A DNA stretch of 64,000 nt from Lachnospiraceae bacterium (lineage in GTDB: Bacteria > Bacillota > Clostridia > Lachnospirales > Lachnospiraceae): positions 1 to 64,000 of the forward strand of contig JAJQDT010000116.1 of assembly GCA_021202075.1 (NCBI GenBank), read 5' to 3'. Below, one piece after another: positions 18,627 to 19,755 of the stretch (the first letter of the stretch is position 1; every line of letters starts with the position of its first letter). A program made the translations under genes and the position numbers. The notes beneath the pieces are model-generated. The model saw nothing but the letters and a program-made list of their open reading frames with translations, did not search any database and had not been told where the DNA came from.

Positions 18627-18882
18627 GACCACACCTCCTATGTCAAACATGGACAGTCTACCACATCAAAGTCCGGATTGCAAGAGAATTTTTATAATTT
18701 CGCGCGGAATTTACCACTTGCTGCGTGGTCAGAGCTTATCCCACACGAAGTGAGGGATGCCTCCCGGCGATGAAAAAAAACGTAAAGATTGCAAGCATCC
18801 GGTCAGATTACCAGCTCCAGATGATTCGGAGGAATCACGCTTCAAAATTTTATAAAAAATTAAGAATATTTTTTCTGAATTT

Positions 18883-18891
18883 TGATATAAT
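18883..18891 (+). promoter_or_regulatory. Extended -10 promoter for the structured RNA
   Basis: TGATATAAT is a perfect extended -10 (TGn then TATAAT). Transcription would begin near 18898, at the start of the hairpin series. There is no clear -35. Confidence 0.55.
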
Positions 18892-18897
18892 AGAAGC

Positions 18898-19051
18898 GAA
18901 GATATCTGCTCAAGCACTTGTCTTCATATGCATTGCATTCACTTTTTAATAGTGTTTTAGGTCGACGAGACCGCAAATGGAAGGATAATTTGACCGACGA
19001 GGTCACTCTGGTTCGCCAGAGCAGGGTATGGTTAGCGCCGTACCCTTTTTT
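18898..19051 (+). ncRNA. Structured RNA upstream of the MazF/PemK-like gene
   Basis: About 150 bases with successive hairpins: GAAGA/TCTTC (18897-18925), CACT/AGTG (18940-18954), GGTC-GACGA-GACC (18960-18972), GACC-GACGA-GGTC (18992-19004), CTCTGG-TTCG-CCAGAG (19006-19021), then a terminator GGGTATGG/CCGTACCC with TTTTTT (19024-19051). The third and fourth share the loop GACGA while their stems are swapped, and they could also pair with each other. The toxin-like gene starts 26 bases after the T-run. Promoter, RNA, terminator and then protein is the layout of type III toxin-antitoxin loci. It could instead be a leader attenuator. Confidence 0.6.
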
Positions 19052-19077
19052 CATCTAATGCACAGTACAGGGAGATA

Positions 19078-19755
19078 ATGATTTTGAACGAATACTTAAA
19101 AGCACAAAATAAAGTCAATGAAAGCATCATAAAATGTTCTTTTCCTATTGATGAAATTGACCGTTTTTCCAAATCGGATTATCGCTGGGCTGACAATCGC
19201 TCAAAAAATTTTCAATTTCGCACAGTGCGAAAAGGTGAAATTTATCAGTTCGAGTTTGGCAAAAATTTTATTCCTGAAATGTCTTATGAACATCGCGGCC
19301 TCGTGATTGGAATTAAAAAAAAGTTGCTCTATGTACTTCCAATCTTTTCCTACAATGTACAAAAGCACACGGATGTGTACCACCCTGTAGATTTTCCTAA
19401 TTCTACAAGCGATATGTTCTTGCTTAAAAGCAGTGAATTTTCATTTATATCACATGATTCTGTGTTAAAGCTGAATGATCTGCGCACTGTAAGCATAAAT
19501 CGCATATTATATAAACAGAGCGGGCAAATTTCCCCATCCTCAGATACATACAAGCAGATTGAAACGCTGGTATTGAAAAAATACTTTCCAAGTTTCCAAT
19601 ATGATTTTGAACAGAGTTTGCAATCCATTCTGGCCTTACAGGAAAACATCTCCAATCTGGAAGCTGACAAAAACAATTTGACAGAAGAAAATGAAAAACT
19701 AAAAGCAGAAATTGAATCTCTCAAAAAGAAACTCGTCTCTATGGCTGAACAATAA
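19078..19755 (+). CDS. MazF/PemK-like protein with C-terminal coiled coil
   Basis: A 225-residue protein. Residues about 50-172 look like the MazF/PemK/ToxN RNase barrel: RKGEIYQFEFGKNFIPEM, then EHRGLVIGI, and the late strand DSVLKLNDLRTVSINRI. Residues about 180-222 form a clear leucine/glutamate coiled coil (ISNLEADKNNLTEENEKLK), which classical MazF lacks. If active it would be an endoribonuclease. No small protein antitoxin lies next to it; instead a structured RNA with its own terminator immediately precedes it. The start is uncertain: AGGGAG is only 3 bases from the ATG at 19078, whereas a TTG at 19084 is better spaced. The gene is AT-richer than its neighbours, which fits acquired DNA. 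Confidence 0.7.
   Translation: MILNEYLKAQNKVNESIIKCSFPIDEIDRFSKSDYRWADNRSKNFQFRTVRKGEIYQFEFGKNFIPEMSYEHRGLVIGIKKKLLYVLPIFSYNVQKHTDVYHPVDFPNSTSDMFLLKSSEFSFISHDSVLKLNDLRTVSINRILYKQSGQISPSSDTYKQIETLVLKKYFPSFQYDFEQSLQSILALQENISNLEADKNNLTEENEKLKAEIESLKKKLVSMAEQ

Follow-up and report, generated by a model that had tools for sequence, protein, structure and literature searches.

A conserved hairpin RNA linked to the gene of a MazF-fold coiled-coil protein in Lachnospiraceae: a candidate RNA-antitoxin module

This study concerns a stretch of 64,000 nucleotides from a Lachnospiraceae bacterium (hereafter the window; positions 1 to 64,000 of contig JAJQDT010000116.1, assembly GCA_021202075.1), in which a promoter is followed by a structured RNA spanning about 155 nt (18898-19051), by a terminator and by a gene (about 19084-19755) whose product has a predicted MazF-like fold and a coiled-coil tail. 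We propose that RNA and protein form a two-part module in which the MazF-fold protein would be bound and kept inactive by its RNA, a reading to which we give a probability of roughly 0.6. On the sequence evidence, an RNA antitoxin that follows type III-like logic but has a new RNA architecture is favoured; toxicity, RNA binding and RNA cleavage are putative. The conserved two-part unit, the slowly changing RNA core and the RNAs that outlive the gene are together as expected of an RNA antitoxin.

A preliminary description of the window had noted a promoter, successive hairpins, a T-run terminator and a gene 26 bases further on, all of which were confirmed in the sequence; the RNA folds much better than shuffled sequence (z = -5.1). 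A covariance model of this RNA was built from four sequences and run over 66 loci (given L numbers below) retrieved by a protein-led scan of genome contigs, comprising 54 close-family loci and 12 distant ones (L062-L073, 23-30% identity). The relatives include several metagenome bins, and a few bear labels other than Lachnospiraceae. In the window and in 51/54 close-family loci a match lies upstream of the gene, with E values from 5e-38 to 1.4e-8. The three loci missed (L048, L058 and L061) start no more than 51 nt from a contig end, and the RNA is present in 51/51 close-family loci with readable upstream DNA, besides the window. Three same-genus genomes encode proteins 72-79% identical, and each of them has the RNA; in one the gene is split into two parts in different frames.

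Covariation was analyzed in 50 copies of the RNA (48 distinct), omitting those of L037 and L074, which have lost a part. Four helices covary, with 97.7% of the pair cells standard and double changes in 18 of 24 pairs, and none of 500 shuffles reached any of the five measures. Having been fitted to the structure, the alignment is biased towards it; when the partner columns were slid by 1-3 positions, pairing fell to 25-48%, and the eye can make out double changes, for example from GACC/GGTC to GTCC/GGAC or to AGTC/GACT. Among the hairpins (HP1 to HP6, Table 1), HP3 has all four pairs doubly changed and 99.0% of its cells paired, HP5 has all six pairs doubly changed, and the HP6 terminator is paired in 100% of cells, with double changes in 5/9 pairs. 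HP1 and HP2 were outside the pair model; the 5' part of the RNA is more variable than the rest, and HP2 is seen by eye in many Lachnospiraceae copies and is missing from several divergent ones. The structure supported by covariation consists of four nested helices, the scan for further pairs, pseudoknots included, being too noisy to judge by.

HP3 and HP4 share a GACRA pentaloop (GACGA or GACAA), found in 47/50 and 48/50 copies, respectively, with GATGA and GGCGA as exceptions; the GACAA form occurs in 22/50 copies of HP3 and 7/50 of HP4. The HP4 stem is GACC/GGTC in 46/50 copies, the others (GGCC/GGCC, GTCC/GGAC, GGTC/GACC and AGTC/GACT) being found once each. The two loops lie 32 nt apart in 33/50 copies (range 28-34). 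The RNA has two diverged GACRA hairpin units, with no clear array of identical repeats. The swapped arms of HP3 and HP4 in the window had suggested that these hairpins might also pair with each other; this refolding is possible in 6/50 copies only and was rejected as a conserved feature.

From HP3 onward the RNA differs by 1.0-16.8% in six pairs of relatives with synonymous divergence (dS) of 0.25-1.94, the highest value being near saturation, and by 12.6% in a seventh pair that gave no dS value. Judged from these alignments, the RNA core is changing far less than synonymous sites. The ratio of non-synonymous to synonymous divergence (dN/dS) was 0.06-0.15 in the six pairs of relatives giving a value, and on these estimates the gene is under purifying selection.

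Flanking open reading frames (ORFs) were clustered for 55 loci (333 ORFs, each at least 90 aa long); the protein was found in 50 loci and any other family in at most four; one family recurring in four loci has a phage integrase as its L040 member. The RNA and the gene travel as a two-part mobile unit in varied genomic settings. By survey, a strong RNA was found in 9/392 genomes of the order, 17/397 of the family, 4/47 of the genus and 1/299 of the phylum (the window's own); these samples overlap, the first three giving 25 distinct genomes, and since few candidates are scored per genome, weak RNAs may be lost. In the order survey strong RNAs were counted at E 4.7e-12 or better and 32/392 genomes reach E 0.01; nine of the 23 weaker ones were viewed (L084-L092) and resemble plain terminators, one of them beside a tRNA.

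The two parts of the unit are not lost equally. Taking a gene of at least 180 aa as intact, 39 of the 52 RNAs of the protein-led set accompany an intact gene, which starts 12-63 nt downstream in 38 cases and about 250 nt downstream in L026. Among the carriers of full-length copies are Oribacterium sp. KHPX15 (L015) and Kineothrix sp. MSJ-39 (L025). The remaining 13/52 loci have a broken gene with the RNA still there, and L074 combines a broken gene with the loss of one RNA unit. In the RNA-led set of 25 loci, tblastn found at least part of the gene in 15 and none in 10, a few codons being left by eye beside the solitary RNAs of L075, L117, L118 and L083. The 10 genomes with a solitary RNA had no relative of the protein elsewhere at E up to 0.01, with a query that otherwise finds the genes. 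Their RNAs (9 distinct) keep 93.9% of the pairs, with 13 pairs doubly changed, one measure (further pair types) being reached by 41/500 shuffles; HP3 is lost in L081/L082 and L083, and an exact TATAAT lies upstream in at least L075, L076, L117 and L082. A close-family gene without the RNA was found in none of the 52 assessable loci. RNA often without gene, and close-family gene never without RNA, is the pattern predicted by an RNA antitoxin.

Several observations limit this reading. The asymmetry is not proof, as the RNAs could be relics of young age, and decayed ones escape an RNA-led search. L037 retains an intact gene (187 aa) beside an RNA without HP3, which counts against a strict need for both hairpins. 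The RNA model gave 0/12 matches in the distant loci L062-L073, which form a distant MazF-like clade without the window-type RNA upstream. The preliminary description had named homologues without a conserved RNA, hairpins absent from related genomes and a domain without RNase-fold similarity as observations that would speak against it. The first was found only in this distant clade (12 loci, 23-30% identity), and neither of the other two was found, since the hairpins are conserved and the fold is MazF-like.

In the mechanism that we propose, a single promoter would give a short RNA ending mostly at its own terminator, and occasional read-through would yield the mRNA of the MazF-fold protein. 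The RNA would display two GACRA pentaloop hairpins (GNRA-like and P22-boxB-like) about 32 nt apart, together with two rigid stems. This RNA would bind the protein, which is probably a dimer, and hold it inactive; the two GACRA loops would be the protein's binding sites, an arrangement that would suit a dimer. A shortage of RNA, upon phage take-over or loss of the locus, might then free the protein to damage cell or phage RNA. We advance only tentatively, at somewhat less than even odds, the wider proposal of a new RNA-antitoxin family in which paired boxB-like (GNRA-type) pentaloops, and not tandem pseudoknots, neutralise a MazF-lineage protein, the hairpins feed back on read-through and many Lachnospiraceae retain the solitary RNA as immunity against the module.

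The main rival is a leader that acts in cis only, in which the protein or another factor would bind the boxB-like hairpins and tune terminator read-through, as an attenuator or antiterminator, with no need for an RNA antitoxin. Its anatomy (promoter, leader, terminator, gene) would be identical, and the GACRA loop is that of the antitermination hairpin boxB of phage P22 (GACAA), according to the available part of PMC12550061. In addition, the 5' arm of the terminator pairs upstream with a mean probability >0.5 in 31/50 RNAs cut before the 3' arm. Against it, 10/25 genomes keep the RNA, mostly with its pairs, though the gene is gone beyond stray codons, and a covarying antiterminator did not stand out, in a scan that was noisy. 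We regard this explanation as unlikely, if still worth serious weight.

A reading that is less probable again has RNA and protein form a stable particle with some other function, for example as an RNA chaperone, a target-recognising nuclease or a small-RNA regulator, the protein being no toxin. The position that we take to be that of a MazF active-site threonine is Phe in the window protein's clade, the coiled coil is extra, and many genomes have the RNA without the gene. On the other hand, the frequent decay of the gene, the patchy spread (4/47 in the genus, 17/397 in the family) and the varied settings give the unit the look of a toxin or defence module; one relic adjoins a ParE_toxin gene and one solitary RNA adjoins Septu-like genes.

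A type II MazF-like toxin, neutralised by its own coiled coil or by an unlinked protein and independent of the RNA, is in our view very improbable. The lack of the RNA beside distant homologues would fit, as would two distant plasmid relatives annotated as type II PemK/MazF toxins; against it, no antitoxin-like gene of at least 90 aa recurs beside the RNA-gene pair, and RNA and gene are linked in every assessable close-family locus. A coding role of the hairpins, as a short leader peptide (frame UUGACCGAC..) instead of an RNA, was rejected as next to impossible: of the 44 copies with exact UUGACCGAC, 34 keep this frame free of stops up to the end of the RNA, but stops occur in the other 10, in several lineages, and the stems covary.

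The preliminary description had also proposed a MazF/PemK-like domain with a coiled coil, in agreement with the predicted fold of the protein, which is of the ToxN/Kid/MazF kind seen in type III systems. Beyond this domain the protein has an N-terminal region of about 45 residues and the coiled-coil tail. It scores 13.8 bits with PemK_toxin (PF02452), below the gathering score of 23.1, and ToxN_toxin (PF13958) is absent from the 17 Pfam families listed for it at E up to 10. ToxN is not among the best 50 matches listed in either fold comparison, which excludes nothing, and sequence searches of the PDB yielded nothing beyond weak matches or matches to coiled coils. Elsewhere, the window's genome (5.55 Mb over 173 contigs) has six PemK-family and four ToxN-family matches, some of them partial, two of the latter being short pieces on one contig.

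With the type III systems ToxIN, CptIN and TenpIN the locus shares the predicted ToxN/Kid/MazF fold and a Rho-independent terminator between RNA and gene. It differs in the lack of a listed ToxN_toxin match, in its two diverged GACRA units where a run of identical repeats would be expected, in the plain hairpins of its supported structure, in contrast to the pseudoknots of type III antitoxins with solved structures, and in the N-terminal region and coiled-coil tail. As the fold and the terminator fit but no match to the ToxN profile was listed, with no clear outcome for repeats or pseudoknot, we did not file it as ToxIN, CptIN or TenpIN. The diverged type III-like system proposed earlier is partly supported, in that the conserved unit of RNA, terminator and RNase-fold gene stands. 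On this evidence the locus would operate as type III modules do, and we describe it as a putative RNA-controlled module of a MazF-fold protein, with an RNA of a new family. The deaminase toxin system AvcID is called type III in the accessible part of PMC10511110, so the term has been applied beyond ToxN.

The closest worked precedents are ToxIN/CptIN (PMC5086642, PMC4627078) and AbiF/RCd22 (PMC12373285), in which, as far as the available parts of these papers go, the toxin is neutralised when a terminator-bearing RNA binds it directly. The abiF motif (RF03085) is described in PMC12373285, in the portion at hand, as 36-37 nt long and present twice in RCd22, with a terminator before the toxin gene and the RNA as main transcript. 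The AbiF protein is of the HEPN type, in contrast to the MazF fold here, and its RNA family was not matched: a lax Rfam search of 18650-19120 gave four weak matches, all unrelated. MazEF/PemIK differ from the window locus in the Pfam score, the RNA partner and the N-terminal region with coiled coil; no protein antitoxin gene recurs here among ORFs of at least 90 aa, shorter ones, which include many antitoxins, not having been clustered. The GACAA pentaloop of P22 boxB, also present in HP3 and HP4 copies, takes a GNRA-like fold whose looped-out C contacts the N peptide, in the excerpt available of PMC12550061; here there are two hairpins in a bacterial RNA and no N peptide.

Neither the window RNA nor the RNAs of five diverse relatives matched an Rfam 15 family at threshold. 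In the window only tRNA and a GA-cis RNA (RF02987; 32031-32109, + strand, 40.1 bits, above the gathering score) passed. In L049, Skipping-rope RNAs (RF02924; 2525-2604 and 3641-3737) flank the RNA-gene unit. Among the open PMC papers listed, judged by titles and abstract openings, none describes this RNA-protein pair; what we could consult of the work on proteins held by RNA antitoxins covers ToxIN, CptIN and TenpIN, plus AbiF and AvcID. Three candidate 'ToxN leader' RNAs (HMP2_3156, HMP2_5421 and HMP2_14852; 106, 68 and 38 bp) upstream of ToxN-annotated genes in Clostridiales and Leptotrichia, given in the available part of PMC8040213, could overlap the window RNA.

If the proposed module is real, a MazF-lineage protein held by a hairpin RNA would show that the MazF fold can be under RNA control with the RNA recognised in a different way. 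Gene-less RNAs are frequent and would offer a direct test case for solitary RNA antitoxins as immunity, in a module that sits in gut bacteria and whose RNA is new to Rfam 15.

Table 1. Features of the RNA-gene unit in the window
Feature	Position	Strand	Basis
Extended -10 promoter element TGATATAAT	18883..18891	+	Read from window sequence
HP1, 5' hairpin	18898..18925	+	Structure kept, sequence variable; folds in window and three relatives, z -1.3 to -3.8
HP2, short A/U-rich hairpin, CACT..AGTG	18940..18954	+	Alignment by eye
HP3, GACGA pentaloop, first GACRA unit	18960..18972	+	Covariation, loop survey
A-rich conserved linker, consensus GAAAGGAUAAUUU	18973..18991	+	Alignment of copies
HP4, GACGA pentaloop, second GACRA unit	18992..19004	+	Loop and stem survey
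HP5, CTCTGG/CCAGAG, variable loop	19006..19021	+	Covariation
HP6, intrinsic terminator with T run (six T), RNA end	19023..19051	+	Covariation
Ribosome-binding site GGGAG	19070..19074	+	Read from window sequence
MazF-fold coiled-coil protein gene	19084..19755	+	ORF, predicted fold, dN/dS

Upstream of the unit lie smpB and secG, on the minus strand. An exact TATAAT was found 20-80 nt 5' of the RNA core in 35/50 copies, against 4.2 expected from shuffles, and with at most one mismatch in 46/50. By eye, an element resembling CTGG(A/T)T or TAGATT recurs in Lachnospiraceae loci (e.g. L011, L013, L016) some 17 nt ahead of a TGTATAAT-like box, at the usual -35 position and possibly an activator site; copies labelled Erysipelotrichaceae or Oscillospiraceae have TTGACA there. 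The gene probably starts at the TTG at 19084, giving 223 aa: the start codon of most relatives aligns with it, and the spacing to GGGAG, where most relatives have AAGGAG or similar, suits it better than the alternative ATG at 19078 (225 aa).

The protein had no match in the phage collection, nor in viral contigs at E up to 1e-3; plasmids gave two matches (25-28% identity, 75-79% of the query, E 6e-3 and 0.6), which are the two annotated relatives mentioned above. The RNA was not found in the plasmid collection, and in phages it gave a 30-base match over the terminator in two records of one phage. A 16-base hairpin pattern had 39 matches in viral contigs, of which the RNA model kept seven (E up to 0.01, 23.7 bits at most); all seven were rejected, as they look like coincidences within coding sequence or, for L130 and L165, like a hairpin in phage intergenic DNA. 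The latter (TTTGACCGACAAGGTC; about 9470-9532 in L130, 8158-8220 in L165) follows a 522-residue open frame, which presumably resembles a TROVE/Ro60 protein, and may be chance.

Some loci have further neighbours. L052 (1680-1960) and L057 (1803-1950) each contain a second RNA copy that has decayed (E 8.5e-5 and 0.015, respectively); in L052 this copy, with a gene remnant visible by eye, is followed by a DUF6290 and ParE_toxin pair and then by the full RNA-gene unit. In L122 (1501-3049) the solitary RNA adjoins opposite-strand genes matching PtuB/PtuA of the Septu defence system.
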